From NCBI GenBank assembly GCA_030849075.1, contig JASAOO010003564.1, positions 62,001 through 126,000 of the forward strand: 64,000 bases of DNA. Reading direction: 5' to 3'. Under the pieces are notes generated by a model. It saw only the letters and a list, made by a program, of their open reading frames with translations, was not told the origin of the DNA and ran no database searches. A program made the translations under genes and the position numbers. The DNA is from Zelonia costaricensis (lineage: Eukaryota; Euglenozoa; Kinetoplastea; Trypanosomatida; Trypanosomatidae). Position 1 is the first letter of the stretch. The number at the start of each line of letters is the position of its first letter. Positions 10,882-59,257 of the stretch are shown here, piece after piece.

Positions 10882-13338
10882 ATGTCCGCCGTCCGCCGCA
10901 GCTCGCGGCACCACGACCGGCCCTCCTCGTCGCCACGGCGGCGCTACTTTTACGATGAGGACGAGGCAGACTACGCGCGGCCGTCGTACGCAGACGAGCG
11001 CCCCTCCCGTGCCACGCCGCACCGCCGCCACTCGTCCCCGCAGCCGGTGTCACGGCCGCACCGCAGCAGTAGCAGCGCATGCAGCCCTCGCAAGCACTCA
11101 GACCGCGCGGATCACGAGCGCAACGGCCGCGAGGACTACGCGGTCGAGGATGGCGTGCCCCCACTGCGTCGCCAGAGCACGCAGCCGCCGCGCCGCCACA
11201 GCTCCCCCACCGTGACGCACCACGGCAACGACCGCAACGGCACCGAGACGTACCACCGCCGTGCGGTCGAGCCGACAAGCCCTAGACGGCGCAGCACCTC
11301 AAGCCGGCGCCCCTCATCCGGCGCCTACGACCGCACCGACGCCGCAGCAGTGGCCCCCACGAGCACAGCCCTCGTCGTGGTGGAAAACGGACACGGCGCC
11401 TCGCCACGCCGCAGCCGCCACGGCACTCCAGACGGGGCGCCCATGCGAGACGGCGGCACCGTGCGCAGCCCGCGCCAGCACCACCAGCAGCCTCGCGACG
11501 CCATCAGCCCGCGTCGCGCACACCGGCAGATGGGCTCGCCGATTCGGCCAGAGCGCCGCGCCTCCTCTGCCTCGCACCGGCCGCGCCACGCCTCGGCTGA
11601 GCCCACCGGCCGCGACTCGCACGGCAGCGCGCGGCGTCACCGCTCCTCTGAGGCGGGCAGCCCACACAAGCGGGTAGCAGCCCCTGAGGCGACGCACCGG
11701 CAGGACACACTGCGCTACCGGAGCCCCCCGCACGTCGAGGCAGAGCCGCCGGCGCGGCGCGCGGCCACCCCGCACCGCTCGCGTCGCCACAGCCACGCCG
11801 CGGAGAACGGAACGCCGGAGAGGGCGGCGCACACCCCACGGCGGCACTCCAGCGCGCACCGCAGCCGCAGCGCGAGGCCAGAGTCCGGTCACGACTCGGA
11901 GCCGCGTCACCGCCGCCACGAGCGCACCTCCACCCCAGCCTCCGTGGCATACGAAGGCAGCCGCCGCACTCGCCACGCCTCGCGGCACCGGCACGCGTCG
12001 ACGGAGCCGTCCGCCGCCGTCTCGCTGCCCGTGCCAATCGCACCGCAGCGGCCGCCCCCGATGACGGAGGCCGCTGTGACGTCCGTCGGCGGCTCAACTT
12101 ACGTGCGCCCGATGCAGAACGGCACGAGCATGTCCGGCCGCGGCCGCTCCGGCTCGCACATCGAGGTCATCAGCGTGCACTCTGGTCGCCCTGGCTCCTC
12201 AAACGGACTGATAGTGTCACGCTCGAGCGGCGCCAACTCCCCACGACGCCCCCACGACGTCGGCCCGCCAGTGGTCGTCCCAAGCGCGCGCGGACAGCAG
12301 ATCCTGCAGCGCATCGACTCGACCCGCCACTGGATCGAGAACATGAAGGAGGAGGTCAACAAGAACCGCGTGCTGGAGGCAAAGGCAGCGGCACGTGAGG
12401 CGCTCGAGGCACAAGAAGCGTCAACGGCAGCAGCGGCGGCGCGGGAGCGGGAGCGGGAGCGGGAGCGGGAGCGGGAGAAGGCGCGGCAGCGGGAACGGGC
12501 AGCGGAGCACAGCGCACGGCGGCACCGCACTTCCTCGAACGGCTCACGCCGGCACGCCTCGCGCGAGGCGCCACCACCGGCGGTGGCAGACGCGCCGGTG
12601 ACAAGCCGCCGCCACGCACGCGAGCCCGTTGCGCCGGCAGCGGCACCGTCGAACGGCACGCATCACCCCGATTCGGCGGTGAAGCCGGAGAAGCGCCGGC
12701 ACCGCAGCAGTTACCCATCGCCCTCCGCTGCCCCGCCAAGCGCTCACAGCGTCGCTGAGCTGGGCAGGGGAGGCAACGGCCACCGCTCTGGCCGGACAAC
12801 GCCACCGCCACCGCCGCCACAACAGCCGCAAGCTCGTCGCAGCCCCACTCCAGACCAGCCCATCCAAGTGGTGCTCATGGACACGGTGAACAGCTCTCGC
12901 CAGGGCGGCGGCTTCGACTACCCCATCTTCTCCTTCACCTCATTCCTCGACGGCAACACGTTCGACAGCACGACGGGCCTCTGTCAGTACAACGTAAACC
13001 TCGCCGAGAGCCTCACCGACGAGCACCTGGAGCACCTGCGCGCCGTCGTCTTTAACAACAACGAGGAGGCATTTGCGGAGCTGCTGTATGGTGACGACGT
13101 ACAGGCGGAGATCGACGTGGTAGCCGCGACACTGGGTCACAGCGAGGATGCGGCGGTGCAGCAGGAGATCATCGTCCTTCAGCGCGCAGCGGTCCGCCGC
13201 TTCAATGAGAAGTGTACCAAGGCGCTGAAGGTGCTGCTGGCCGCGGAGGGCGGGCTGGCTGACGCGGTGCAGGCGGCTGCTTCTCATCTGGAGCACCAAG
13301 CCTACCAGGCGGACGGCTCCGCCATCAGCGCCCCGTGA
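10882..13338 (+). CDS. Arg/Ser/His-rich low-complexity protein with coiled coil and C-terminal domain
   Basis: 818 residues from the first in-frame ATG; the frame is open slightly upstream but only with non-ATG codons. Not recognised as a known family. Residues 1 to about 460 are strongly enriched in Arg, Ser, His and Pro, with recurrent SPRR, RRHS and RHAS peptides, and would be disordered and very basic. About residues 474-560 form a predicted helical, charged segment. Within it, six tandem GCGGGA hexamers encode an Arg-Glu run at about residues 521-533. About residues 661-818 look globular (QVVLMDTVNSS..., FDYPIFSFTSFLDG, then helices). The design is that of a scaffold binding RNA, tubulin or membranes, but I cannot say which. 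The basic Ser-rich tail could be a phosphorylation target. Confidence 0.85.
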   Translation: MSAVRRSSRHHDRPSSSPRRRYFYDEDEADYARPSYADERPSRATPHRRHSSPQPVSRPHRSSSSACSPRKHSDRADHERNGREDYAVEDGVPPLRRQSTQPPRRHSSPTVTHHGNDRNGTETYHRRAVEPTSPRRRSTSSRRPSSGAYDRTDAAAVAPTSTALVVVENGHGASPRRSRHGTPDGAPMRDGGTVRSPRQHHQQPRDAISPRRAHRQMGSPIRPERRASSASHRPRHASAEPTGRDSHGSARRHRSSEAGSPHKRVAAPEATHRQDTLRYRSPPHVEAEPPARRAATPHRSRRHSHAAENGTPERAAHTPRRHSSAHRSRSARPESGHDSEPRHRRHERTSTPASVAYEGSRRTRHASRHRHASTEPSAAVSLPVPIAPQRPPPMTEAAVTSVGGSTYVRPMQNGTSMSGRGRSGSHIEVISVHSGRPGSSNGLIVSRSSGANSPRRPHDVGPPVVVPSARGQQILQRIDSTRHWIENMKEEVNKNRVLEAKAAAREALEAQEASTAAAAAREREREREREREKARQRERAAEHSARRHRTSSNGSRRHASREAPPPAVADAPVTSRRHAREPVAPAAAPSNGTHHPDSAVKPEKRRHRSSYPSPSAAPPSAHSVAELGRGGNGHRSGRTTPPPPPPQQPQARRSPTPDQPIQVVLMDTVNSSRQGGGFDYPIFSFTSFLDGNTFDSTTGLCQYNVNLAESLTDEHLEHLRAVVFNNNEEAFAELLYGDDVQAEIDVVAATLGHSEDAAVQQEIIVLQRAAVRRFNEKCTKALKVLLAAEGGLADAVQAAASHLEHQAYQADGSAISAP
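12441..12476 (+). repeat. Six tandem GCGGGA hexamers inside a CDS
   Basis: Perfect (GCGGGA)x6 encoding alternating Arg and Glu in the coiled-coil part of the low-complexity protein. Unit changes would stay in frame, so copy number may vary between strains. Confidence 0.95.
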
Positions 13339-23262: not shown

Positions 23263-24322
23263 ACTGGGGGGTGTGACGTGAAAATGGGGTCATCAGTCTC
23301 TCGCCATCCTTCTTCCTGCTCTTCTCCCCGCCAAATCGGCGCTGTTGTCATTTTCCGGGGGCATTCATTGGAGCCTTTTCTTGTGCTCGGTGCTCTCGCA
23401 GCTTTGCGCAAGCCGTCGATGGCGCTCCTGGATGCTCGGCACTCCTCGAAAGCGCACCCCGATCTTCATTTTCCTCTCACAGCCTCGCTGATGCGCTATT
23501 TTTTTTTTCTTGCCTTGATCAAAGGCTCACGACGGACTCTGGCACCCGCCGACAGGAGTCCTGTTTTGCATTCGCAGGGGAGGGGAGGGGGAGACCGCAC
23601 CGCGAAGGTGGACGCAGAGGCACGCGCTCGCAGTAATGCGCGCGTTTGCGAGACGAGATTTCAGCTGTGTCCTTGTGCGCGCATGCGTACCTGCGTGACA
23701 TCCCTCTCCCCCTCCCTCCTCGGTGGGTGCACTGTTGTACAATCCCATGGCTGTTGTGACCGGTAAAAGCCGAGCGTGTGCTTTTTCCTCCTAACCCCGC
23801 CGCCTATGTGGAGGGGCGGTTGTGCCTTCGCGAGCGCCATTCCACAATTGTGTTTTGCTTCCGTGCTCGGGCCACCCGGGCCGCTTTAGCAGAACCGTAA
23901 CGAGGACGAAACGTGGGAGTCACGGCTCCTCTCAACTCTTGGCGGAGCGCTGTTGCAGACGCGGCGCCGCTGAGGAACTCCCATTTTCACGCTTGACATC
24001 ACCACGTCTTGTCAGAAACATCGACAGAGGCCACGTCTTCGGCCAAGAGCGCACCGTGACAAGGCCGCGCTGCAAAAAAAAAAAAAAAGCCCTCGGATCC
24101 TCAGGCAACGCTGCGCTTCCAGCGTCGCGACGGTCGCGGAGGGCCGCCACGACCTGCATCCCACATATCCTCTTCACTGTCCCACCGCCCCTCTTTTCTC
24201 CCATCCCCCCCCGCCTCACGCCACATAACGCAAGGAAACGCGAGGACTTGCGAAGACGCCAGCACGCGCGTTCTGCGCCCCACTTCCCTGCGCCGTCGTC
24301 CCTTTCTGTAATCGTCGTGCAA
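23263..24322. other. Intergenic spacer with poly(A) tract
   Basis: 1.06 kb spacer without a credible CDS. It is less pyrimidine-biased than other spacers and contains an A15 run at 24074-24088. Sequence from about 24160 becomes C/T-rich towards the next gene. Confidence 0.6.
24074..24088 (+). repeat. A15 homopolymer
   Basis: Fifteen consecutive A on the plus strand, unusual in this C/T-dominated spacer set. It could be the tail of a degenerate retroposon of SIDER type, which lies in 3'UTRs in Leishmania, or simply a homopolymer. Confidence 0.6.
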
Positions 24323-27300
24323 ATGCAGCGAGCCTCTGTGTCAGGCGCACTGCTGCGACGGGGTGCCTTGGTGCCGCTGTGGGTCACGACGGCGCCACGG
24401 CACCGGGAGCTTACACAACGGCGCGGCGCTCACACGGGTCGTCGCGCCGATGTGCCGCCTCCGTTGGCGACCGTCGCGGCACCCACGCGTCGGCGCCGCA
24501 GCGTTTTGGACGGCAAGCCATCTGCCGTGCCTGCGACGAGCACCAGCTCGGCATACTCGTGGCACGACATGCTCACGCTCGGCCCGGCGTGCCCGGGCAG
24601 CAGCTCCCGAGTTGCGCTGCGCGAAGTCGCGGCGCGCTGCCTAGCCACGGAGGCGCCCAAGCGCTACGCGGTCTACCGACCTAGCCGCCCTGTCGCGAGT
24701 CGGCTGAGCGACCCTCACGCCACGGCAGCGCCGGCAGCACCGATGTCAACCCCGCAGCATTTCTTGGAGCTTCTTCTCCGCCTCCGTGGTGCCCACGGCC
24801 TCTCCGCGGAGGCGGCGCGTGTCGCCGAGGTGCTCGTCGACCTCCTCAGCAAGCCGCCGCACCCGCATTTGCCCGGCCCGTGGGACCTCACGCCGGCCGA
24901 GGTGCGCGCGGTCAAGGCGCGCGCTATACAGCACGCCATGGACAGCATGCCTGCTGGCAACGACGCGCTGGCGTGGCTTGCACGGCTGCTTCGGCTGGCA
25001 GACACGCAAGAGGTGGTAAGGAGCGAGCAGGAGGAAGGTGCCTCCCTTGTGTGGACGGCTGCTGCAGAGCGCTACCGCCTGGGTGGTGGTGAGGCAGCGC
25101 CGGCGGCGTGCCGGGTGCGCGTGAACGACCCCGATGGAGCGTGGCTGCTCACGCGCTCGTCTGCGGTGCTGGCGGCCACCGCAGCGGCGATGCTGCGCAG
25201 CCCGGGTGCGACGCAACGGACGCGTGCGCTGGACCTGCTGGAGGCGGCGGCCCTGTCGCGGCTCCGTCGCGGCGGCGCGGAAGGGGCCTCTGTCTTGCTC
25301 GACGACGGCGTGGCGGGCATGCAAGCCGTTTCGTCGCCGGCGGTCTTCGACGAGGCGGTCGCGGTGCACTGCGCCGAGGCGGCGGCGATGCAGGGCGACA
25401 CCGAGACGGTGACGCGGCTCATCTTTCTGCTCTACCGTGTGCGCGGCGCGCTTGGCTTTGCGACGCTGGTAGAGCACCGCCAGCAGCGCCACACCGGTCG
25501 CGGCAGCAGTGGCGGCTGTGGTGGCGAGGATGGCACGCTGCTGCCGCGTTCCCCTGCGTGGCTCAGCGCGCAGTGGTGGCGGTGGCGCGGCGCAGGGGCC
25601 GCGGCGCAGGACACGAACACGCCAGCCCCGGTGGCGACCGAGGACGCGGCGGATGTGCGCTTTGAGCAGGCTGTGGTGCGCCTCCTACGGAGTGCGATGC
25701 GCGCCGTTCTTTTCAACCCACAGCGACAAAGCGACGCGGTAGCGGGCACCGTGGAGGACGCGCTGTCGCTCTGGAACGGGCTGCGGGGCACCACGAGCTG
25801 GCCGGGCCTTGCCGCCACCGGCACGGAGCTGCTGCGCTACCTCGCCGACCAGCGCCCCCGCTTCGCCGCGGCCGAGGCGGCGCGCCTGCAGCACGTGGCG
25901 GTGTCGCTGTACGAGCACCTCTGCCGCGCGGCACCGCCCCGGCACCGCACGGAGCCGCAGCGCGAGGTCGTGGACCACGCCGCGGCGCTCGTGCTGCGCA
26001 CACTCGCGACAGACCTCGTCTTGACCGGGGCAGAGTACGCCGTCCCGGTGCTCGGCAGCACGGAGGCCGCGGAGCAGGCGCTGCGCGTCTTCGCGAACCT
26101 GTCGGGGTCGCCCGCGCGAGAGGCGGCGCTGCCCTATGCACTCGCCGCCTCCCTCACCGTCTTGGCCACGGCCGCGACTCAGAGAGACTACTGCGCGCCG
26201 CCGACCCTCCTCACAGACTTGGCGGCGTACTTTGGTGCAGTGCAGTCGATGCACTACTACTGCGTCGCGGCGGCCTCGGCTGAGGTGCCGCCGCACGTCG
26301 CCGTCAGCGGCAGCCTTGTACTGCTCCATGTCCTATTGGTGGACAGCATGCCACGCGGTGTTTGGGCGCACGAGGGCGGCGGGCTGCTCCCGCTGCTGCG
26401 CCGCCTCCAACACACGGATGCGAGCCTGCACGCGCCACCATCGGCCACGCATCGCAGCGTTGCCGGTTCGCTGAGCGTCGCTGGAGAGATGCAGCGGTTG
26501 CTCCTGTGGCGCCTACTGCTGTCCGCCAAGCAGCGTGACTCGTCGTGGTGCGCAGCCGTGCCGGCGGCGCTCGCCAGTCCTGCCGTGTCAACAGCCGTGC
26601 ATGTGGCCGTGGGTGCCGTGGGTGTGCGGCAGACCGTGGCGGAGCTGGCCAGCATCACGGCGCTACTGTACGCGTGCGGCCACTGCGATGACCCCGTGTG
26701 CGCGAGCCAGACGCTGGACAAGATTCTCAGCGCATCGGTGCAGACGCCGATTCGCACCCTCACCCTCGAGGTCCTCGCTACGCGACTGCGGAACTTCACG
26801 GCCGCCGCCCGTCAAGCGAGCGCAGTGGTGCTCGTCCTCGGCGTGGCCACGCTGCGTGCGCTCGCACAGCGCAGCAGCGATGCGGCGCATGGGCCGCTGA
26901 CCCTGGAGGCCGCGCTGCGCGCTCTGCAGCCGCTCCTGGTGTCGCCAGCGCCGGCCGCGCCGCCAGGCCTCACAATGTTGGTGTTGACCGCCGCTGCAGT
27001 TGTTGAGCTGCGCCGCCTGCACGCCAGTCCCGGCGCCGGTGGCGACGGCGCTCCCATCGTGCAGGCCCTCCACGACGCGCTTGTCGGCAGCGAGGCCGCA
27101 GCGGCCTTCCAACTCTGCACGGCAGCAGCCTGGCCGCTGCCGACGGCCATGTCGGCAGCGCTGGTGACGCACCGGGACCTGCGCGAGGTCGACGGGCTGC
27201 GTGAGGCGACGGCGGCGGCGCGGTACCTCGAGCAGGCCTTGCCGGCGGAGGCTCGTCCCGTGGTGTGTCTGTGGGCTGAAGGCGACGAGCTGCGCGACAC

Positions 27301-27559
27301 ACCCGACGCCGCGGGGGCCTACGCAGAGGTGCTACGCCACTACGGCGTGCGCGAAGTCAGCGCCCACCGTGCGCATGCCGCGAGGGCGAAGCGGGACATC
27401 CTCTCGTTGATGCGCAACGACGTAGTGACCGCAGCCGCCCCTGGCGCCTCTGCATCGGCAACCGCCGCCGCCGCAGAGTCCCTCGCGGAGCGCCGTACGC
27501 GCCACAGCTCGCTTTTGAGCGCCGTCACACCACGCGCTCGGCCGCATCGCACCGCCTAG
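24323..27559 (+). CDS. Large Ala-rich helical protein, probably mitochondrial, unknown function
   Basis: 1078 residues from the ATG at 24323; sequence upstream in frame reads as spacer. The N-terminus (MQRASVSGALLRRGALVPLW) is Arg-rich, amphipathic and acid-free, like a mitochondrial presequence. The rest is Ala/Leu-rich and predicted almost wholly helical, compatible with a helical-repeat solenoid of TPR/PPR or ARM type, but no repeat signature is clear. The C-terminal ~100 residues contain a more ordered block (VCLWAEGDELRDTP, then YAEVLRHYGVREVSAHRAH). Glycine-rich and low-complexity inserts occur near residue 395. Large proteins of this kind in trypanosomatid mitochondria often belong to the mitoribosome or RNA-processing complexes, which is only a guess here. 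Confidence 0.82.
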   Translation: MQRASVSGALLRRGALVPLWVTTAPRHRELTQRRGAHTGRRADVPPPLATVAAPTRRRRSVLDGKPSAVPATSTSSAYSWHDMLTLGPACPGSSSRVALREVAARCLATEAPKRYAVYRPSRPVASRLSDPHATAAPAAPMSTPQHFLELLLRLRGAHGLSAEAARVAEVLVDLLSKPPHPHLPGPWDLTPAEVRAVKARAIQHAMDSMPAGNDALAWLARLLRLADTQEVVRSEQEEGASLVWTAAAERYRLGGGEAAPAACRVRVNDPDGAWLLTRSSAVLAATAAAMLRSPGATQRTRALDLLEAAALSRLRRGGAEGASVLLDDGVAGMQAVSSPAVFDEAVAVHCAEAAAMQGDTETVTRLIFLLYRVRGALGFATLVEHRQQRHTGRGSSGGCGGEDGTLLPRSPAWLSAQWWRWRGAGAAAQDTNTPAPVATEDAADVRFEQAVVRLLRSAMRAVLFNPQRQSDAVAGTVEDALSLWNGLRGTTSWPGLAATGTELLRYLADQRPRFAAAEAARLQHVAVSLYEHLCRAAPPRHRTEPQREVVDHAAALVLRTLATDLVLTGAEYAVPVLGSTEAAEQALRVFANLSGSPAREAALPYALAASLTVLATAATQRDYCAPPTLLTDLAAYFGAVQSMHYYCVAAASAEVPPHVAVSGSLVLLHVLLVDSMPRGVWAHEGGGLLPLLRRLQHTDASLHAPPSATHRSVAGSLSVAGEMQRLLLWRLLLSAKQRDSSWCAAVPAALASPAVSTAVHVAVGAVGVRQTVAELASITALLYACGHCDDPVCASQTLDKILSASVQTPIRTLTLEVLATRLRNFTAAARQASAVVLVLGVATLRALAQRSSDAAHGPLTLEAALRALQPLLVSPAPAAPPGLTMLVLTAAAVVELRRLHASPGAGGDGAPIVQALHDALVGSEAAAAFQLCTAAAWPLPTAMSAALVTHRDLREVDGLREATAAARYLEQALPAEARPVVCLWAEGDELRDTPDAAGAYAEVLRHYGVREVSAHRAHAARAKRDILSLMRNDVVTAAAPGASASATAAAAESLAERRTRHSSLLSAVTPRARPHRTA

Positions 27560-27942
27560 CCGCACGGCGGCAATAAGGATGCACTTTTCCACTGCGCGGC
27601 GCTGCTTCACCTTCCCTCAGTTTGCTTTTCTGTGCGCTGAACGTCTTCCCCCGAGCACAACCCCCACCGCCCACAGCTTCTGACGACGCGTCGCTGCGAC
27701 ACCGACGGCGGGTGTTTCTGCCAGCCATCTTTGATGCCCCCCGCCCCCACCCCCTCCTTCCCCTCGGGTGCCCACTCCGTCTCGATAACTCTCCGCTTCT
27801 CGGCTCCCTCCTCCCCCGCTTCCCTCTTATCTTCGCTTCTGGTTCACCACAGCGAGAGACGCCCTCGCACACAGTCGTCGTGATTTGCCTGCACATATCG
27901 CTTTTTTGCTTCACGCACACTTACACGCACGCACGTCATCCC
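27560..27942. other. Intergenic spacer, 383 bases
   Basis: Short spacer with a clear polypyrimidine tract at about 27770-27842 and an AG at 27851-27852. No CDS. Confidence 0.75.
27851..27852 (+). promoter_or_regulatory. Predicted trans-splice acceptor AG, DTD
   Basis: First strong AG after a T/C tract of about 70 bases; 90 bases before the ATG. No later AG precedes the start, which makes this the best candidate. Confidence 0.5.
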
Positions 27943-28401
27943 ATGAAGGCCGTTATTCAACGCGTGTTGAGCGGGTCCGTGACTTCGGAAGGCGAGGTCG
28001 TCGGCTCGATCGGGAAGGGCCTCGCCGTCCTCGTGGGCATCGCCCGCGGCGACACGGCGGACGACATGGACTACATCTTCCGCAAGATCCTCGGCGTGCG
28101 GGTGTGGAGCAACGAGGACGGCTCTAAGATGTGGTGTCGCAACGTGAAGGAGATTGACGGCGGCGTGTTGCTCATCTCGCAGTTCACGCTGATGCACGTC
28201 ATGAAGGGCAACAAGCCCGACTTCCACCACGCCATGCCGCCCGAGGAGGCCCTCGCTATGTTCAACACGCTGCGCGACAAGCTACGCGCCGAGTACGCGC
28301 CGGACAAGATCGCGACCGGCAAGTTCCAGCACTACATGAACATCCAACTCACCAACGACGGACCGGTGACGTTGGTGCTCGACAGCAAGGACCGCGGCTG
28401 A
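27943..28401 (+). CDS. DTD: D-aminoacyl-tRNA deacylase (DTD)
   Basis: 152 residues, the normal size of DTD (about 145-150). The enzyme removes D-amino acids, and in many organisms glycine, mischarged on tRNA, acting as a homodimer with cross-subunit active sites. Both catalytic blocks are present: SQFT at 79-82 (in LLISQFTLMH) and the Gly-cisPro motif G140-P141 in LTNDGPVTL. The N-terminus MKAVIQRVLSGSVTSEGE is typical. The second block reads SQFTLMHVMKGNKPDF, where bacterial enzymes have YADTRKGRRPSF, a modest divergence. It is the last gene before the gene-free region. Confidence 0.96.
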   Translation: MKAVIQRVLSGSVTSEGEVVGSIGKGLAVLVGIARGDTADDMDYIFRKILGVRVWSNEDGSKMWCRNVKEIDGGVLLISQFTLMHVMKGNKPDFHHAMPPEEALAMFNTLRDKLRAEYAPDKIATGKFQHYMNIQLTNDGPVTLVLDSKDRG

Positions 28402-31400
28402 GCGGCCACCACCACTCCTATTTTCAGACCCGTGACGCACATGCGAGTGACTTACGACAAAAGAGAACCGCCACAAAAATGACACGGCGGCCGCAGCCCA
28501 CCCCACGAAAAAAAGCGCGCCGCGGCATCTCGAGACCGCCGCCCCCATTTTGACCCGCAGCAAACCACCCGCCCGCCCCGCAAACCCGAACCAGACCGCT
28601 CCACCCACCCCCAGGCCCCTCGCCGGGCGTCCAGGCCGCCCCTCCGGCCCCGGTCAGGTGGCCCCACCCCGCGGCGGGCTGGTTTCCGAGGCCCACCAGC
28701 CCCGCGGGGGAACCCCGCCCCGCCCGCCGGAAAAGCCGGGCCCGGCCGCGGGCCCCCCGGGTGCCCTAACCCGCCGCCCCACGGGGGGCTGGTCCCTGGG
28801 GAGGCGAGCACCACCTGCCTCCCCCCCCACAAACGGCGCCCCGCAAACCGCGAAGCCACGGCAGGACGGCCACCGTTTCCCAGGCCGACACCGGTGGCGG
28901 CGGAAAAGACACCGAGGCCGCCAACCTTCGCCGGCGTACCAGGTGTCACCCGCTTGAAAGCGTTACGAAACCCGTCGCCACTGCCCGGCCTAGCAAAAGC
29001 CCACCGCAAGGGCGCCCCCGTCCCCCACAAAGAGGGGGTGGCGGGGGAGCGCTGGGCGGCGGCGTGCTCATTTTTTCTGCCCCAAGACCCGCCTTCTTTG
29101 ACAGCGAACGGTCGAAGAGCCCACGAAACAAGCCACGGCACTGGAATCGTTCGGGCTTGGTAAAAAGCGAAGGCGGAGTCTCTGCCGTGAAATTCCCGAG
29201 TGCCCCACTCAGGCAAAAAGCACCTACTTGATCCGCGCCGGAAAGGACCATGAGGTAAGCCCACGGAGGCAGAGCCCGGCGCCGCCAGCGCCGCCACGCC
29301 GAGTGTGACTGTTCGGCCACTCGGTGGCGGGGTCGCTCGGGGAAAAGATACCCTCCCAAAAGCGAAGTCTGTTTTGTCAGAACCAACAAGAGAAGGTAGG
29401 CGCTGAAACGCAGAGGAGAAGCAGCCTCGTCGGACTCGTCCGGAAAGGTACTGAAAACAACAACGCGGCGCATGACTGAAAAGAGAACGCCGAGACAGGA
29501 ATAAACGCGAAACCAAGGCCACCCCCAAAAGCGCGCCAGCCCCCCCCCCCGAAAGGGTGCAAAACTGCGCAGGCAAGAACCACGGTTTTCCCCGGCGCCG
29601 AACGCGGTCTCCCCGCCCGGGAGCGGGGCAACACGAGGTGGCACGTGCCTGTGGTGGCGTGCGTTCGTGGCGGCGCGCGGATACCGCGGGGCTTGCGCTT
29701 GGGGGAGGAGGGGGGGGGCGAATCGGCCCTCTTTGGAGGAACAAACCCTCGGAAAACAGCCGGACGCGCGCAGGTCCTTTTCGCAGGTGGGACCTCTAGC
29801 CTGGGCAAGCGGGGTCCCGCGGCACGGAGAAGCATGGCGCCTGGCAAACCCGAACCGCGGAAGCACACGTCCCCACACCGCAAACGGCAGCAAATCCCCC
29901 CCCCCCAAACCAAGCGGCCCAACAAGAGGCCGTCAGGTTTGCGAAAAAGCGCCAGCGGAAAACGAGCGCCGGGCTTCTTTCCGTAAAGAAATCCGGTTCT
30001 TCGGGGCCGGACGGCTCCGTGAACCCGCGGGGGAGTTCGCACACTTGGTGGGCCCCCGGCCGCGCCTTTCCCCCCTGGGCCGGCGCCCAGGGGACGGCCC
30101 CACGGCCCCCCGGACCCGTGTGTTCCAGCGAAGCGCACCCCTACCCCCCACCCCGCAACGTTTTTCTTCGGGGAAGGGGACGCTTTTGCTGCACACCGAG
30201 GGGGGTTGAGATCAGTCAAAAAAGAAGCAAACCCGCCGAAACAACAGGCAAATGCTCCTTTCTGGGTTTTTCGAGGGGCGCTGCGCTCTGCGGGGTCCGC
30301 TTCGTGGGGTCAGGGGGCCGGCCCCGCAGCCGAACGAAAGCCAGGGCGATCTCGAAAAGGGGGGGTCGCCCCCCACCGCCGGCCCCTGGCGCAGGACAGC
30401 TTGGGGGGGGGGGCCTGCTTTGGCGCCAGGGCCCGTTGCCCCGATGCCCGCCTGCTCCGCGTGTTTGCACAACCCGCCTGCTTGTTGAGGAAACGAGTAA
30501 TACACAAGGGGGGGGGGTTAATGGAGAAACACAGGAAAGCACGCGCACAGCACAGGGGTTGCCTCGAAGTAAAAGAAAAACCCCCGATGGCCTGGAAAAA
30601 GCCCCACCCTGGCGCACCATCTGACGCGGGCGAGGTGGGGATAAAACCGAAGCAACGAAAGACAAGAGAGAGATATCAATAGAGTTGCACCACTTGATGC
30701 GCGCAGCGGATATGAAAGTGGAAACAGAAGGGGAAAACAAGGGACTGTTAGGATGAAGCGCAGGGGGGGGGAAAGAGGCAGAGGGGAATGAGAGAGACAT
30801 ACAACGCGAGGCACAACGGATTACGCGTTTGTTTGCCCTGGCCTCCCTGAAAGGTGGGCCGGGGCGTGGCAAACGTAAAGCGCGAGCGCGTAGGCGCCTC
30901 TTCCGCTTCGGGTGCCGCCTCCTCGCGCATAAAGGGGGGGAAAGGGAAAGTGAAAGGGAGAACCGAAGGATTACTGCCTCAGTGACCCGAAAGTTGCGTA
31001 CAAAAGGGGGGCTTATGTGGTGGTCAGTGCGGTCCAGCTGGGGACCAAACAGGGCCGTTCCGGCACCAGATGCGCCACACCAGCACACTGGCCGCGGGGC
31101 CGGGGTGTTCGCGTGAGGGGCGTGGCGGGCCCTAAGATGCACCCCGCTGTGCGCCCGGGCTATTGCGACGCTCGGGCCCAGGTGGTCAAGTTGTGTTTCC
31201 CGTTGGCGACTCTCACGGTTTTCTTGACACGCCCCCGCTGATATGCACGGCCATTCGGCGCAGAAGAAAGCTACCGACGTTTATGGAAAGGGAGGATGGC
31301 GAGGGGATGGCCACCTCCCCCAAGAAGCTCTTGGCAGGGGGCGCGCTCTTTTTTGCACAAAGCGCACCCCTGAGGGGGGCCAGCGCCCCCGCGCAGCTGG

Positions 31401-31854
31401 GTTTCTACTTTTTCCCGCCCGGTCTGGGTTGGGAGGCGTTGAAAGCAGGAGCCTCATCGGCACGGTTTCTGGGTTTGGGGACCGCCTCTGTTGGGGGATC
31501 TCGGGGTTCTTTTCACCGCCGCAGTCAACCGGCCCCGGGTGGTGGGCCCAGGGCCTGGGGCGGGACAGGGGCTCTGTTGAGGCGTTGGGTGGCATGGGGC
31601 GCTGTTAAAGAAAAACAGGTCTCAAATCGCTGCGATCTTCCCACGCACTGTGCGGGGAGGGGGCTGGGCCGGCTCATAGTTAAACAGATGTCACGTAGCA
31701 TTCCACGTGTTTGGGAGCAAGTGGGGCTTTGACGCCGCGCTGGTTCCGGGTGGGGGGCTGGGGACTGGGGGTTTTCGGGGGTTGTTCTCCCGGGAGTGGG
31801 AAAGGAAGCGTGGTGCCACGGTAACGGCGGCTACCTGAAAGCGTCGGGTCAGGA

Positions 31855-31867
31855 GGGGGGGGGGGGG
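31855..31867 (+). repeat. G13 homopolymer
   Basis: Plus-strand G-run inside the gene-free region. Together with other G-runs nearby it could support G-quadruplex formation. Confidence 0.9.
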
Positions 31868-32196
31868 CATGCGTGAGTTTTGATCGATGCCGGCCATCCC
31901 TTACTCTACACGGCAAGCCTTGGGTGTCCCCAGCTCGTGGTGGGGGTTGCCTCGGCGCTGGTTTACGTGGGGAAAGGGGCAAAAGAGAGAGTGGGCAAAA
32001 AGGGGGGTCCCGTGGGCGAAGGGGGGCGTCGGCGCGGGCGTTTCGAGGGGTGGCTGAGGGCTGGACTCATGGGGGCGCGCTTTTCAAAAGGATGCCACCT
32101 GGGCGCTTGCCCATGTGTGACGGCGCTCCCGCTGAGCCGGTCACCGTGCAGGTGGGACCTCGTTTCCTACCCGCTCTTTGGGCCTCCTCAGAGGGA

Positions 32197-32211
32197 GGGG
32201 GGGGGGGGGGG
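32197..32211 (+). repeat. G15 homopolymer
   Basis: Longest plus-strand G-run in the window, inside the gene-free region; other spacers mostly carry C-runs on this strand. Confidence 0.9.
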
Positions 32212-33202
32212 AAGAGGCTCCCGGGATTCTGACGCTGTGCTTCGTGCACGCGGCTTGCTGCACGGGGGTCAGGTTCTTCGCTGCGTGGCGAGAAAGGCAG
32301 TTGGGCAAGGTGGTCGATCACAGGTTTCGTTTCCGTCTTCCCTATGGGGAGAACGGGAAGAAGGCCCGCTCACGTGGCGGAGAGGGCTAGGACGAAGGCA
32401 ACGTCGGCTCTCCAGCATCGGACCTCGGCTGTTTGCTCAGGGAATTCCCGACACGCCACCCGCAGCGGAGGGTGTTACTTCCAAACGTTGCCTTTTTTCC
32501 ACACGGGCGGCCTGTGTTTGGGTCGCTCAAAAACACTTATTGCACCTTGCGCGGCTCGTGGCCCTGCAGGTGAGGCACAGTTGCGGCGGCTTTATGGGTA
32601 GTAGAGGCAAACGCTCGTTGCGCTGCTTCAGGGGACGTGCTGCCTACTCATTTTGTGGTGCGGCTTCTTCCGCCTCGGAGCTCCCTGCGGTAGAGCAGGT
32701 GATTGACAAAGAGCAGGGTAAATAGGATGTGGACCATGGAGCATCACTTCCTGTGTTTGCTCCCGTGATCGCGGTGGACTTTTCCTTGCGGAGTCGTTCC
32801 AGTGTTTGCGACCGCTGTCTTCCTGAGGTGCTAAACGCCTATCTCTAGCGGCGCTAATCCAACCGTTGGGGCAAAACAACTGAGAGAGCGACTCATGCGT
32901 GGTTGGGGTTGAGCAGCCTACGCACTGCTTTCAACCGCGAGTCTCTATTACCACGGAACGCAACCATGAAAATTAATCTACCCAGACTGCTGCTGGCGTT
33001 AGCCTTTAAAACGCCTTGTATGGTCCATTTGGCAAAAAAAGGTGCGTCAGATGCGTGTGCTGGACGCACCAAGGCGATGCGTTTCGGTGATCGCACGAAA
33101 CACCTGCTTAGCAAGACTAACGCGCATGCACCCGCTCCGCTCTCGAAATTCACGCTCTCTCCAAACCAACCTCTTATTTTTCCAAATTGTTTGGACGCAC
33201 TC

Positions 33203-33204
33203 AG
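33203..33204 (+). promoter_or_regulatory. Predicted trans-splice acceptor AG, transportin
   Basis: AG after a T/C stretch at about 33165-33183, 72 bases before the ATG. This is the first spacer-type signal after the gene-free region. Confidence 0.4.
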
Positions 33205-33276
33205 GTCTTCTGTGCTAGCTGTTTTTCCGCTAGTTTGAACGCCCGACTTCCGTGTTGGGCCAGACGTCCGTCTGCG

Positions 33277-36093
33277 ATGTACACGCCGACTCGAGATGAC
33301 TTGGTGAGCGTGGTGCAGCTTCTCCACAACAATGGGGTCGAAGTATCCAACTCAAAGGCAGCGTATGCGGAACTGAAAAGGTACGAGTCGAATCCCGCTT
33401 TCTGTATTCTTCTCTCCACCGTCTTCGGCGCCGACGCGAGCCCGATCACTGATGTAGCACTTCCTGTTCCGTGGCCGCAGTACCGCCAGCTCGCCGGCAT
33501 TACGCTCAAGAACAACCTGGCGGCGGCGCGTCACGCGCTTGGCGAGGATGCTGTGAAGGAGGCCGCGCGCCACGCGCTGAAGGCGCTGAGGAACCCGCCC
33601 GACGCCCGCATCGCACGAACCTCTGCCCAGGTCGTAGTGAAGGTGACCGCCCTCACATCCTTTGAGTGGTGGTCAAGCCTGGGCCTCGGCGACTTGTCTA
33701 GCATTCTGCTGGGCGAGATGGTGCCGAGTGGGGAGCTGAAAACTCTCGCTGCGCTGTACTGCCTTCAGTACATGATGGAGGATTTGCCCAAGCAAATCGG
33801 TGCGTCAAGCGAGCACATCATTCTCCGCGTCTCGGAGTTGGCGTTGTCACAAGGATCGCCGATGCACATCCGCAAGGCTGCGTTCCGCATGTGCTTCAAC
33901 ATCTACGAGCAGGCTGCGCTTCTTGACTGGAACGTCACGACTTTTTCGCCGCTGCAGGAGGGGTTGTCTAAGGGGAGCTACGGCTTTGCCAACGCGTGCA
34001 CGTCACTGCTTGAGAGCGCGTGCGGCGGGGACACCGCGTTTATGATCCTCGTGCTCCGCTCCTGTTTTCTGCTGCTGGACTACTTCGACTTTTTCTGTCC
34101 GATGGGGGCAAGCGAGATGGAGCGGTACTCGAACGCCTGGATCGCGAATTCCGCGCAGATCGTGTGCAGCAACCAGAGCGGTCCCAACCGAAACCAGGAG
34201 CTAGTGGCTGCGGCGATCGACTTGATCTCACAAACTGTCGACTTGAACGACCGCAACGGCGGCGAAACTGGCATCGCCTTCCTCACGATCTGCATTCCGC
34301 AGCTTATCTCTTCCCTGGCACCAGCACTCGTCCGGTACTCCTTGCTCTCGGATGAGGAGGTCGCGAACATCATGGACACGGACGACTACCGCATCCGCGA
34401 CAGCACGGCGGTCAGCTTTGAGGTTCAGGGCGGCACCAAGGACATCTCGGAGGACGACATGATGGACGAAGACGCCGCGGCCATGACGCTGCGGAGCGCA
34501 GCGCTAAAGTGCGTCGACAAGCTCGGCAGCTTCTCTAGCGAGGCAACCTACCAGGCCTTGATTGGGCAGATTCAGCAGCTGTGGAACAGCAACGAGTGGC
34601 GGGAGCGGGAGGCAGGCATCGCGCTGATCGGGACGCTAGCCGGCGGATGCGTCCGCGAGTTGAGTGGGGTCTTGCCTTCGCTGGTGGCGCAATTTGTGCA
34701 GTTTATCAGCAACCAGTCGGAGCATGTGTGCGTTGTCAGCATCGCCGCGTGGGCTCTCTCGCGGCTGAGTGAGAGCATTTTGACCTCGTCGCCTGCAACC
34801 ATGGAGTCTGTTTTTCCTCTTCTCAGTGGAAGGCTGCAGAGCACCAGCAAGCGGGTACAGTGGTCGTGCATCACAGCTCTGAACGTCATCTACGGCGTGC
34901 TGGAGAACTTCGGCAGCACCGCCACGATTGTGCCACACCTCCCAGCGCTTCTCGAGTCGGCGTGCACGTGTCTTCCTGTGTACTCGACTGCCAACCTTTC
35001 CCTCCTAGTCGACTTTGTGTGCAAGCTCATTCCTCTCCTCGGCGACAAGACCACGGCAGAGCGGCTCTCTTCGATTCTGCAAGCAGAACGTAGCGGCCGC
35101 GCGGCCTCTTTTGAGCAGTCGTACGCTGCCATGTACGTCCGCGAGGAGCCAAATGTGCTGCTGGACAAGGACGTCTTTGCGCTGGATCGCGCCATTCTCG
35201 CGTTCATCTCCGTGTACCCAAACAACGAAGTGGCGGTGGTGAACTTGAACACATGGAACGCCGTGCTGCACGACATCCAGAGCCGCGGCGTCACGGACGA
35301 CGCGGACCTCGTCGCGAACGCGCTGCTCATCTGCGGCACCTACGCCACATCGGTCTCGACGGCCACACTGGAGGAGTGGCTGCGGTCGACTTCGTGGGCC
35401 ATGCCAACGGCGGCAGCCACTTTCTTGAGGACGTCAAGCTCGGCAACCGTGAAGATGGCGTGCGGCGCGATTCTGTGCTCTCTTTTGCGCGCTCTCGGGC
35501 CGACCGCGCTGCCTTCCGGCCTCCACGATTCGCTGCTCAAGTGGGCCACAGCCGAGATCGCCGACATTGATGATCCGCAGTACAAGGAAAGTGTTGTGCG
35601 TCTCATTGGGCAGGTGGCATCCAACTACCCGGGCCCGCTGTCGGCCGACGCGGCCGCGGCATTGGGGGCTACGAACGCTGCGCTGCGCAGTGACGTGTTT
35701 GGCGACTCGGCGTACTTCTTCACGGAGATGGCGTTCGACCTGTGTGGGGTGCTAGCGGTGCACCCAGACTGCGTGGTGCACTTTCGCATCGAAACGATAT
35801 CGCAGCTCATGGCGCGGGCGGAGAACTCCATCGTCAAGTCGGAGGCAACAGCGAGTCTTTTCGAGGCCATGGTGCGGCTCTCACCGGAAGCATTCGCTGC
35901 GGCATTTCCGGCAGCCATAAAAGTCGTGTACAGCTGGCAGCAGGCAGCGATCAACTACCCCGGAACGAAGGAGGCGATCCAGGGCTTCCTGTTTCACACA
36001 ATGAGAACCTGCCCCGGTATCCTCCAATCGACCTTGCAGGGGCTTCAACCATCATTTAGCAGCATGCTCGTTGGGTTCTACGGGCTTCAGTGA
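33277..36093 (+). CDS. Transportin-like karyopherin beta (importin beta-2)
   Basis: 938 residues, HEAT-repeat solenoid, near the usual 850-900 for transportin. Transportins carry cargo with PY-NLS signals through the nuclear pore under control of Ran-GTP. The N-terminal ~120 residues fit the importin-beta N-terminal domain (LPVPWPQYRQLAGITLKNNL). An acidic loop begins near residue 391 (SEDDMMDEDAAAM), where transportin has its long acidic H8 loop; here it is much shorter. It is followed by a WNSNEWREREAGIALIGTLAGGC block. Near residue 520 the run LQSTSKRVQWSCITALNVIY matches the transportin RILDSNKRVQEAAC region well. The first ATG in frame is used. Cargo specificity cannot be predicted. Confidence 0.88.
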   Translation: MYTPTRDDLVSVVQLLHNNGVEVSNSKAAYAELKRYESNPAFCILLSTVFGADASPITDVALPVPWPQYRQLAGITLKNNLAAARHALGEDAVKEAARHALKALRNPPDARIARTSAQVVVKVTALTSFEWWSSLGLGDLSSILLGEMVPSGELKTLAALYCLQYMMEDLPKQIGASSEHIILRVSELALSQGSPMHIRKAAFRMCFNIYEQAALLDWNVTTFSPLQEGLSKGSYGFANACTSLLESACGGDTAFMILVLRSCFLLLDYFDFFCPMGASEMERYSNAWIANSAQIVCSNQSGPNRNQELVAAAIDLISQTVDLNDRNGGETGIAFLTICIPQLISSLAPALVRYSLLSDEEVANIMDTDDYRIRDSTAVSFEVQGGTKDISEDDMMDEDAAAMTLRSAALKCVDKLGSFSSEATYQALIGQIQQLWNSNEWREREAGIALIGTLAGGCVRELSGVLPSLVAQFVQFISNQSEHVCVVSIAAWALSRLSESILTSSPATMESVFPLLSGRLQSTSKRVQWSCITALNVIYGVLENFGSTATIVPHLPALLESACTCLPVYSTANLSLLVDFVCKLIPLLGDKTTAERLSSILQAERSGRAASFEQSYAAMYVREEPNVLLDKDVFALDRAILAFISVYPNNEVAVVNLNTWNAVLHDIQSRGVTDDADLVANALLICGTYATSVSTATLEEWLRSTSWAMPTAAATFLRTSSSATVKMACGAILCSLLRALGPTALPSGLHDSLLKWATAEIADIDDPQYKESVVRLIGQVASNYPGPLSADAAAALGATNAALRSDVFGDSAYFFTEMAFDLCGVLAVHPDCVVHFRIETISQLMARAENSIVKSEATASLFEAMVRLSPEAFAAAFPAAIKVVYSWQQAAINYPGTKEAIQGFLFHTMRTCPGILQSTLQGLQPSFSSMLVGFYGLQ

Positions 36094-36721
36094 GCGAGGG
36101 GCGCGGTGCGGCGGGAAACAAATCGAAAAGCTGGTTGCTGCATCATTTTTGTTGTGCCGCGGTTTTGGGCTACCGTAAGTAAGCAGGCTTTCTATTTTCT
36201 TTTTTTTAGTCTACGCTCGGGGGGAAGGATTCAGCAACTCTCAAGACGAACTGGAAACCAACCCAGGGCATTCAAAAAGGAAATAAAGAACTATATGCCT
36301 AATGCGCTGGCAGCCCTCTAGCTGCTGGATTTTCAACACTTGTGAGCGAAGCAGTCTTCTCGGAGTCACTCACATTCCGGTCATGTCCTCCGGCTCAAAG
36401 TCCAGAAAAGGGTGCCTGCACGACAGCGACTTTTGTTTACTGCTGAGGTTGCCGCTGTAGGCGCATCCACAGGAACCGTAAATGCGGCGTCCGTTGCTGG
36501 ACTCAACGGGGCCCGGAGGAGCACTCTGCGTCTCAGAGGCACAGGCGGTCGCACTCTCTGTGAAATCAACTTACCCACAATGCGCTCCCCTGTTTTCGCT
36601 CTCCTCTTTGCCCATCCTGTGAAAACTCGGCAACCTGACAGCTGTCTTGCCCCACAACGTTGTTTTTTTCCAGAGTGGCGTGTTTCGCTGACGGTGAACT
36701 TTCTTTGCTCCAGCGCTCGCC
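36094..36721. other. Intergenic spacer
   Basis: 628 bases, no CDS. The 5' half is AT-richer and purine-rich (about 36195-36300); the final part has T-runs ending at an AG. Confidence 0.7.
36672..36673 (+). promoter_or_regulatory. Predicted trans-splice acceptor AG, i-AAA protease
   Basis: T-run at about 36659-36670 directly followed by CAG, 48 bases before the ATG at 36722. Textbook arrangement. Confidence 0.55.
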
Positions 36722-38695
36722 ATGCGACACTTTTTTCGCAACGCGGCGCTCGTCGTCAATCGCCGCACGACAGTGCTGCACGTGTGTGCCGGCCACCCAT
36801 CCCAACGCAGCGCCACCCTGATCGTAGCGCCCGAGTTCCTGCAGAGGCGGACGTACTACCCCAGCCCAGGCGGGTACCCGCCGCCGCCGCCGCCGCCGCC
36901 GTCCTACTATGGGCAGCCGGCGTGGAACCCTTACGGCGGCGGTGTCTACGGTGCCCCGCCGCCGTCGCAGGGTGGCATGGCGTACGGCCCGACATCACAG
37001 CCCCCGTTTCCCAGCGACCTGGGCACCAACGAGCGCCCTATTGTGGTGGTGTCGGCGCCACAGAAGGCCTCCTGGGCGACACGCTTCTGGATGTTCTTGC
37101 TCTTCGGCATTGGCCTCAGCTGCTTTATTAGCCTCATAGAAGAGTTCAACGATCGCTTCCAGGAAGGCACGCCTGTGAACCGCAGTGGCTTTCCGCGCTC
37201 TGGCATCGCTGGCATGTTTGGCGCAGGTGAGGTGAAGCCGGTCAGTTTGGACAACCTTGAGGTGACTTTTGACAGCATTCGCGGCTGCGATGAGGCAAAG
37301 AAGGAACTCGAGGAGATTGTCGAGTTTCTCAAGGACCCCGAGAAGTTTCACAACCTCGGCGGGCGACTGCCAAAGGGGGCGCTGCTTGCTGGCCCACCAG
37401 GGTGCGGCAAGACGATGCTTGCGAAGGCGATTGCTAAGGAGGCCGGCGTGAGCTTCTTCTACGCCACGGGAAGCGAGTTTGACGAGATGTTCGTCGGCGT
37501 CGGCGCTCGCCGAGTCCGTGAGCTGTTCGCAGCCGCCAAGGCGCATGCGCCGGCGCTGATCTTTATTGACGAGGTGGACGCCCTCGGGGGCCGCCGTTCC
37601 CACTCCGACCACAGCACCTCACGCATGACGCTGAATCAGCTTCTGGCCGAGATGGACGGCTTTGACTCCGACGAGGCCGTGATCGTGCTGGCAGCCACCA
37701 ACACGCCGGATACGCTGGACAAGGCGCTCACACGGCCGGGTCGGCTGGACACGACGATCACGGTCGATCCTCCCGACATGAAGGGCCGGGCGGAGGTGGT
37801 GCAAGTGTACCTTGAGAAGATCAAGGCTGACAGCTCGGTCAGTGCGATCGAGATTGCGCGTGGCACGACGGGGTTCACCGGCGCGGAGCTCAGCAACCTC
37901 GTCAACCTGGCGGCAATCCGAGCCGCGGTGCTCAACAAGGCCAAGGTGACAAACGACGAGATCGAGTACGCGAAGGACCGCGTGATGATGGGCGCCGAAA
38001 GCAAAAAGGTCATTCCAGAGGAGGAGCGTCGCGTGACGGCGTTCCACGAGGGCGGCCACGCGCTCAGCGCGATTCTGCTGAAGGACGACGGCGCCGACCC
38101 GGTGCACAAGGCGACCATTGTGCCGCGTGGCAACGGCATCATGGGTCTTGTCCAGCAGCAGCCGGAGAAGGACAAATACAGCCAGAGCAAACGGCAGTGC
38201 CTGGCTCGCCTGAAGGTATGCGTGGCTGGCCGAGTCGGCGAGGAGATTTTGCTCGGGCCGGACGACATCACGACCGGCGCCGGTTCGGACTTCCAGCAGG
38301 CGACAAATATGGCACGCCACATGGTCCGCCAGTTCGGCTTCAGCGACACGATGGGGTTTGTCGACTACAGCACTGCTAACACCGCAGAGGGTGCCTATAT
38401 CTCGGACGAGACGAAGGTCAAGATCGAGAAGGAGGTGCACCGCCTCGTCGACCAGGCCTACGTCGAGACGAAGGCGCTGCTGCTGAGCCATCGGCCAGAG
38501 CTGGAGACGATCGCGAACAACCTGCTCAAGTATGAGACTCTCAGCGGCAAGGACCTCGAGAAGATCCTCAAGGGTGAGCCGATTCCAGAGCGACCGCCAC
38601 GCCTGTCGTCCACGACCGAAAGCAAGTCTGCGCCGCCGCTCAGCGGCAACGCGGCGCAGGCTAGCGGCGGCCCGCGCACTGTCCCCATCTCCTAG
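36722..38695 (+). CDS. Mitochondrial i-AAA / FtsH-family ATP-dependent zinc metalloprotease
   Basis: 657 residues. Membrane-bound hexameric quality-control protease, resembling YME1. The N-terminus is Arg-rich (presequence-like) and is followed by a Pro/Tyr/Gly-rich stretch (45-85) with eight consecutive Pro. One membrane span lies at about 120-138 (single-span topology, i-AAA type). The AAA module has Walker A GPPGCGKT (224-231), Walker B LIFIDEVDALGG (279-290) and a second region of homology with ATNTPDTLDKALTRPGRLD. The zinc site is H442-E-G-G-H446 with third ligand D523 (in TTGAGSDFQQAT). HEGGH replaces the more common HEAGH but keeps all ligands. The C-terminus is Ser/Pro-rich. It is expected to degrade unfolded inner-membrane proteins on the intermembrane-space side. 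Confidence 0.95.
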   Translation: MRHFFRNAALVVNRRTTVLHVCAGHPSQRSATLIVAPEFLQRRTYYPSPGGYPPPPPPPPSYYGQPAWNPYGGGVYGAPPPSQGGMAYGPTSQPPFPSDLGTNERPIVVVSAPQKASWATRFWMFLLFGIGLSCFISLIEEFNDRFQEGTPVNRSGFPRSGIAGMFGAGEVKPVSLDNLEVTFDSIRGCDEAKKELEEIVEFLKDPEKFHNLGGRLPKGALLAGPPGCGKTMLAKAIAKEAGVSFFYATGSEFDEMFVGVGARRVRELFAAAKAHAPALIFIDEVDALGGRRSHSDHSTSRMTLNQLLAEMDGFDSDEAVIVLAATNTPDTLDKALTRPGRLDTTITVDPPDMKGRAEVVQVYLEKIKADSSVSAIEIARGTTGFTGAELSNLVNLAAIRAAVLNKAKVTNDEIEYAKDRVMMGAESKKVIPEEERRVTAFHEGGHALSAILLKDDGADPVHKATIVPRGNGIMGLVQQQPEKDKYSQSKRQCLARLKVCVAGRVGEEILLGPDDITTGAGSDFQQATNMARHMVRQFGFSDTMGFVDYSTANTAEGAYISDETKVKIEKEVHRLVDQAYVETKALLLSHRPELETIANNLLKYETLSGKDLEKILKGEPIPERPPRLSSTTESKSAPPLSGNAAQASGGPRTVPIS

Positions 38696-58692: not shown

Positions 58693-58721
58693 CCTGTGTG
58701 TGTGTGTGTGTGTGTGTGTGT
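58693..58721 (+). repeat. (TG)n microsatellite
   Basis: About 14 TG units on the plus strand. Confidence 0.95.
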
Positions 58722-59235
58722 TGACGTAATGGCGCGTCTCTGTCCGACTCCTTCCTGCCATCTTCCTCCGCTTGTACCCTCACGCGCAGGCGTGTGAGCA
58801 TAAAAAAAACAAGGAGGTATCGTTTTCGTAGCTGATGGGTGGAACAAAAAACAAAGAGATAAAGAGCGAGACACAACTACAAATCAAGCAGCAAAGAAAA
58901 ACAAAACTAAGCGACAGGAAAAAGAACGTTCTGCGGCATCGCCGTCACCCATCTCTCCACGCACACACAGGCCACGTGTTGCGCTCCGGCGCGACAGTGA
59001 AGAGCTGCAGCCACAAAGTGTGGAGGGGAGGAAGTACGCCCCACGCGCACTTGCGCACACGCACCAACACACATGCACACAGGAGCCCACTGCGAGGAGG
59101 ATCGGGAAGCCCCCCCCCCCTCGTAGTAACTGCAGCGTTTCCGCGTTGGGGACAGCTCAACGGCGCCCGCAGCTAGTCGCAATTCAGTAAGACAGCGATC
59201 GGAGTGCTGCATGAATGCGCTGTGCGCAGCGTGTT

Positions 59236-59257
59236 AGTGTGTGTGTGTGTGTGTGTG
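59236..59257 (+). repeat. (GT)n microsatellite
   Basis: About 11 GT units on the plus strand. Confidence 0.9.

Follow-up and report, generated by a model that had tools for sequence, protein, structure and literature searches.

Centromere and origin loci of Leishmania

In Leishmania major, transcription termination, the centromere and the main early replication origin coincide at one locus per chromosome, according to the available text of PMC11708010 and PMC7511235. Loci marked jointly by acetylated H3, base J and KKT1, which are early-S origins, are described in the available part of PMC7511235 as having a switch of skew together with G4 motifs arranged on the minus and then on the plus strand, and the switch is recorded there also where the neighbouring units run head-to-tail. 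For other classes of site the same text gives no related change of skew polarity at base-J sites with or without acetylated H3, a weaker change at acetylated-H3 sites near chromosome ends and a change of T skew alone at other internal acetylated-H3 sites; its motif search yielded no sequence signature specific to the strong early origin. Within an L. major unit, centromeres are the only places at which polymerase occupancy drops to zero (PMC11708010, available text).

Chromosome 36 of L. major has a single mapped origin at ~1.1 Mb, around which the genes LmjF.36.1900, LmjF.36.2830, LmjF.36.3000 and LmjF.36.3790 were used for qPCR, and the equivalent site in L. mexicana, in which chromosomes 20 and 36 are joined, is without a peak (PMC4612428, available text). 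The chromosome-36 centromere of L. major interrupts one-directional transcription. The KKT1 blocks of this species are reportedly 4 plus or minus 2 kb in size.

The gene-free block described here resembles the core origin/centromere loci of L. major, that of chromosome 36 above all, in its probable strand-switch position, the head-to-tail case included. It is also similar to these loci in its local negative-to-positive switch of G and T skew, in the minus-then-plus order of its predicted G4-like motifs and, taking the size that is reported, in extending over a few kilobases; the likeness to the chromosome-36 locus includes the gene-order neighbourhood. The L. major loci rest on ChIP and replication mapping, whereas the block belongs to a different organism and is known here from sequence alone.

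Setting and composition of the block

The 64-kb window analysed comprises bases 62001-126000 of a 211,713-bp contig (C754) in an assembly of 28.67 Mb and 755 contigs. Calling genes by codon score and usage gave 54 spacers of at least 300 bp on the contig, the longest of which is the block, 4,875 bp at 28402..33276 (C754:90402-95276). It carries no strand assignment, is flanked by head-to-tail plus-strand genes and is a candidate centromere-origin with a transcription stop and restart. The altered strand composition that a preliminary description had reported for this 4.9-kb block between same-strand genes was confirmed in 250-bp bins.

Composition divides the block into three main parts. The left arm (28402..30400) is C/A-rich and, as had been described, T-poor, with a T fraction of 0.12 over the first 2 kb and of 0.07-0.16 across 28401-30650. 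T-poorness is not unique to the block: 13 of the 2,098 2-kb windows on the contig, the block's own counted, are equally low, and the lowest value falls inside an ORF at window position 10901. The centre (30401..31150) is purine-rich (0.58-0.68, with the maximum of 0.68 at 30651-30900), in agreement with the earlier placement of a purine-rich stretch at about 30480-31000. The right arm (31401..32400) is G/T-rich, with a G+T fraction of 0.60-0.65. Runs of G11 to G15 had been assigned to this part, which does hold G13 (31855) and G15 (32197), but four of the six long G runs precede it (G9 at 29710, G11 at 30403, G10 at 30508 and G9 at 30763). The first of these sits in the C-rich left arm, where C runs occur at 28821 (C8), 29540 (C11) and 29896 (C11).

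The purine fraction of the whole block, 0.53, is the highest among the 40 plus/plus spacers on the contig, the runner-up having 0.51. The claim that all other spacers are pyrimidine-rich held for 16 of 16 within the window (at least 300 bp, genes called by codon score; purine 0.34-0.49) but not when raw ORFs were taken as genes, two short spacers then reaching 0.51 and 0.53.

Skew switch and G4-like motifs

Sliding purine and skew profiles, which had been proposed as a check, gave the purine-rich centre and a negative-to-positive switch of both G and T skew. With arms of 1.5, 2, 2.5 and 3 kb, four of the five sizes used, no other place in the 211.7-kb contig had a larger joint jump than the block centre; with 1-kb arms the centre ranked fifth, being exceeded at C754:37500 and at three other places. 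The best split point varied with window size between 30250 and 30700. G skew in 500-bp bins stays close to zero or negative up to ~30400 and is positive from there to 32900, while T skew is negative up to ~31400 and positive thereafter; within the left arm the values are -0.24 to +0.02 for G and -0.13 to -0.41 for T. With 2-kb arms, T skew rises from -0.31 to -0.03 across the block. A local switch of this direction in both G and T skew is the one that characterizes the core origin/centromere loci of L. major.

G4-like motifs were predicted on the minus strand of the left arm at 28568 and 28753 and on the plus strand of the right arm, where five lie at 31537-32193, so that there are 2 minus and 0 plus to the left of 30800 and 0 minus and 5 plus to its right. 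This is the order seen in L. major, with reverse-strand motifs upstream and forward-strand motifs downstream, in small numbers of predicted motifs. Counts of five or more on the plus strand are reached in 31 of 414 equally large contig windows, which makes the arrangement, rather than the number, telling; the two minus-strand motifs in the left half are not enriched (mean 1.5).

A broad replication-type skew along the contig was rejected because G and T skew disagree in direction. Between 18 spacers on each side of the block, G skew changed in the expected direction (-0.18 left vs -0.09 right) and T skew in the opposite one (0.17 vs 0.11). Broad replication skew is absent in L. major also (PMC7511235, available text).

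Pyrimidine-tract polarity

Pyrimidine tracts, taken as runs of at least 10 pyrimidines, were counted per strand in each spacer. Such runs on the coding strand serve trans-splicing. Tracts favoured the plus strand in 34 of the other 39 plus/plus spacers on the contig, with four ties and one reversal, and the minus strand in 12 of the 13 minus/minus spacers, with one tie. In the block they number 1.0 per kb on the plus and 5.3 per kb on the minus strand, and both halves agree. Tract polarity is a stronger sign than composition. Because minus-strand tracts dominate in both halves, the block appears to behave as DNA outside the reading of the surrounding plus-strand unit, and it is on this polarity that the proposed interruption of the unit rests. 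A pyrimidine-rich stretch ending in AG (33140..33220, plus strand), read from the sequence ahead of the ATG of the first gene after the block, a transportin2-like gene, is the likely trans-splice acceptor of that gene, and plus-strand transcription would thus have restarted by this point.

Search for genes, RNAs and satellites

The block contains four frames that start with ATG and reach 150 aa or more. Their codon scores are non-coding (-0.29 to -0.66, compared with +0.50 for the neighbouring D-Tyr-tRNA deacylase gene), their GC content is flat by codon position, and a Pfam search of all four returned one sub-threshold match (14.5 bits against a cut-off of 27). The whole 64-kb window yielded no tRNA, and the stretch 24000-37000 had no Rfam match at E values up to 0.5. 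A hidden protein gene and an RNA gene were rejected on these grounds, and the preliminary view of the block as gene-free was borne out, no convincing gene having been found. A tandem centromere satellite was likewise rejected, the sole listed array in the block being a 21-mer of 1.9 copies, and BLAST of the block against itself gave the full-length self-match only. A looser repeat search of the block listed 15 short direct and 15 short inverted pairs, 66-89% alike and mostly at C or G runs.

Flanking genes and correspondence to chromosome 36

The last gene before the block (27943..28401, plus strand) encodes a D-Tyr-tRNA deacylase (DTD; PF02580) of 152 aa and the first gene after it (33277..36093, plus strand) the transportin2-like protein, of 938 aa. 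Identity of the DTD protein was 90% to Lotmaria, 88% to Novymonas and 88% to L. mexicana among the best 120 of 416 matches; for the transportin2-like protein it was 72% to L. mexicana, 69% to Porcisia, 68% to Novymonas and 65% to Leptomonas, among 39 matches from the 7,998 best candidates scored. By its proteins the organism belongs to the Leishmaniinae. The synteny comparison suggested in the preliminary description found the two genes to be neighbours in relatives. In L. martiniquensis they have consecutive locus tags (LSCM1_00287 and LSCM1_00286) on one 2.7-Mb contig. The sizes of the contigs carrying the two genes are equal in L. mexicana, L. pyrrhocoris, T. theileri and T. vivax and unequal in Novymonas and two Phytomonas isolates. 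A 1,219-aa model joining DTD and transportin (P0018) was dropped as proof of a short outgroup spacer, since intervening sequence may have been spliced out of the model; it is a hint of adjacency only.

The L. major D-tyrosine deacylase LmjF.36.2730 has 152 aa and the other L. major DTD 211 aa (PMC3532385, available text), and by family and length the DTD gene beside the block appears to correspond to LmjF.36.2730. The qPCR primer pair published for LmjF.36.2830 could be placed at C754:47177-47231, within a helicase gene (C754:46584-49886), with 5 of its 34 bases mismatched; the best of 60 shuffled primer pairs had 7 mismatches. An open frame of 4,120 aa (C754:1605-13967) that contains a PI3/PI4-kinase domain is consistent with LmjF.36.2940, which has 4,183 aa (PMC6161909, available text). 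Gene order matches that of L. major chromosome 36 at these three anchors, and as they follow one another along the plus strand as 2940, 2830 and 2730, the orientation of C754 is the reverse of the L. major numbering. No site for the LmjF.36.3000 primers was found on C754 (best 15 mismatches in 42), and the forward primer had no match at up to 3 mismatches across the assembly.

By gene-number interpolation, with a chromosome length and gene count that we assume, LmjF.36.2730 presumably lies at ~1.0 Mb. This is compatible with the origin at ~1.1 Mb, without being decisive. It is likely, though not proved, that the block coincides with the chromosome-36 origin/centromere of L. major, which would place that centromere at the DTD-transportin gene pair; since the origin is stated only as ~1.1 Mb and LmjF.36.2730 is interpolated, another nearby site could be the real L. 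major origin.

Interpretation

A centromere/core-origin strand-switch region of the Leishmania type, in a head-to-tail setting and with RNA polymerase II stopping and restarting, is in our view the likely identity of the block, because its skew and G4 signature and its gene neighbourhood resemble those of L. major. An internal termination site and a centromere had previously been posed as alternatives. In L. major the two coincide with the main early origin at one locus per chromosome, and the signature and neighbourhood favour the joint reading; the origin and the G4 arrangement had not been raised. Polymerase II arriving from the left would stop after the DTD gene and restart just before the transportin gene, and the untranscribed DNA between them would hold the kinetochore and the main early replication origin of the chromosome. 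The switch from C/A to G/T and the minus-then-plus order of G4 motifs would be either a trace or a requirement of forks that depart in both directions, their leading strands being G-rich. The chromosome probably starts copying and attaches to the spindle at the block, where a kinetochore, an origin and base J are predicted by analogy with L. major.

A non-centromeric head-to-tail termination/initiation site, at which base J would stop polymerase II and acetylated H3 would mark the restart but which would have neither a kinetochore nor the main origin, seems to us an unlikely account, though one of some weight. Its gene arrangement and its polymerase stop and restart are those read for the block, such sites are known within Leishmania units (PMC11708010, available text), and the lack of plus-strand pyrimidine tracts would follow from an absence of transcription in that direction. 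Base-J and acetylated-H3/base-J sites of L. major are, however, described as having no related skew change (PMC7511235, available text), whereas the block has one. Polymerase stop is also incomplete at non-centromeric head-to-tail sites, which keep some occupancy (PMC11708010, available text), so a 4.9-kb gap with reversed tracts would be less expected there. The tract polarity, shared with all but one of the 13 minus/minus spacers, the exception showing a tie, could also come from a relic of a minus-strand unit or from an inverted segment, the block having been, or still being, transcribed from the minus strand while its genes decayed. This we regard as improbable. In its favour, the copy of a dispersed repeat inside the block is oriented against the flanking genes, in contrast to those on contigs C400, C638 and C574, which share the plus strand with genes in their vicinity; yet the copy on C237 is on the minus strand beside plus-strand frames, so the repeat runs against its neighbours elsewhere too. 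Minus/minus spacers moreover have positive G skew in 12 of 13 cases and negative T skew in 12 of 13, a pattern unlike that of the block, where both skews increase rightwards and T skew is positive at the end; neither codon scores nor Pfam revealed a coding remnant within the block. The consecutive position of the flanking pair in L. martiniquensis also argues against such a relic.

An ordinary long spacer or a chimeric assembly join is the explanation that we expect least and hold to be very improbable. Homopolymer runs are hard to assemble, and the block was judged from the assembly; but the single N of the window, at C754:81706, lies outside the block, the genes to its left and right are neighbours in relatives, and its composition has no match among the 40 plus/plus spacers.

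Centromere-origins of this kind are already known, and what is added here is this case and its tract polarity. A more general proposal, which we put forward as doubtful, is that trypanosomatid centromere-origins may be recognizable from their letters by the skew switch together with a blockwide reversal of tract polarity, as DNA never read on the surrounding strand and perhaps read on the other as non-coding RNA. Their position would be held by gene order across the split between Leishmania and its relatives, and species with a moved or lost origin, such as L. mexicana after its chromosome fusion, would show whether the skew decays. A gene pair that is conserved and carries the composition signature in another species would offer a fixed place at which to ask whether position, sequence or a transcription gap defines an origin. 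L. mexicana provides a natural comparison: skew kept in its DTD-transportin block would point to old history, and decayed skew would indicate that skew follows firing.

A dispersed repeat in the block

The repeat within the block is a diverged copy at 30876..31355 on the minus strand, ~63-65% identical to other copies. Repeats of this family, ~0.45-0.6 kb long, were found on at least six contigs, namely C754 and five others (C400, C638, C574, C237 and C452). Among themselves, those on C400, C638 and C574 are 89-94% alike, and as the block copy is only ~63-65% identical to these, it looks older than the others. The surroundings of the repeat were compared over the whole of C400, 16 kb of C638 and 2-3.5 kb of C574, C237 and C452. 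The repeats on C400 and C638 have no comparable skew switch (best joint jump at most 0.13 within 4 kb), and pyrimidine tracts in the C400 spacer are almost balanced between the strands (4.4 plus, 4.1 minus). A shared centromere element was therefore rejected and the sequence treated as a dispersed repeat. L. major centromeres are reportedly retroposon-rich in KKT1 mapping, and one repeat copy proves little about a centromere of that type. In size and in spacer location the repeat is similar to the SIDERs of Leishmania, whose size is close to 0.45-0.6 kb. SIDERs form large families, whereas the repeat here was found on six contigs, a lower bound (PMC2689281, available text, for SIDERs). Retroposons of the SIDER type have a 79-nt hallmark sequence and end in poly(A). 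An A12 run lies near the end of the C400 copy.

Strand composition and spacers along the contig

Among the 40 spacers of at least 300 bp between plus-strand genes on contig C754, only one besides the gene-free block (window 28402–33276) was found to have reversed pyrimidine-tract polarity. This 1.9 kb spacer (C754:153250–155151; L014:7250–9151, in a stretch outside the window) carried 5.8 pyrimidine tracts per kb on the minus strand versus 2.6 on the plus strand, with a purine fraction of 0.51, and is possibly a second internal stop or a small inversion.

The contig-wide minimum of plus-strand T (2-kb window at 10901) fell within an 818-aa frame at window 10882–13338, which had no Pfam match and in which AT skew reached +0.40. 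A 3.2-kb spacer at window 56759–60000 was full of open frames; these were non-coding by codon score (e.g. 57307–58632, 441 aa) and gave no match in a Pfam search. The highest codon scores among the 55 called genes, 0.59 and 0.60, belonged to two 137-aa frames at C754:33974–34387 and C754:35390–35803 (L008:3974–4387 and L008:5390–5803, also outside the window), which are probably a tandem gene pair.

A dispersed, low-copy repeat of approximately 0.45–0.6 kb was observed on at least six contigs, with copies at window 30876–31355 and in the stretches L002, L024, L026, L028 and L029. One copy had an A12 run close to its end.

Flanking genes in other genomes

The genes flanking the block, encoding D-Tyr-tRNA deacylase (DTD) and a transportin2-like protein, were assigned to contigs of unequal length in Phytomonas EM1, Phytomonas Hart1 and Novymonas, as if a chromosome or assembly break lay between them in these three. 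Among the DTD matches listed (best 120 of 416), a D-aminoacyl-tRNA deacylase (P0050) recorded under a Providencia heimbachae metagenome-assembled genome shared 75% identity with the Zelonia costaricensis protein, ranking above the Trypanosoma and Phytomonas proteins. P0050 probably represents contamination of that metagenome-assembled genome.
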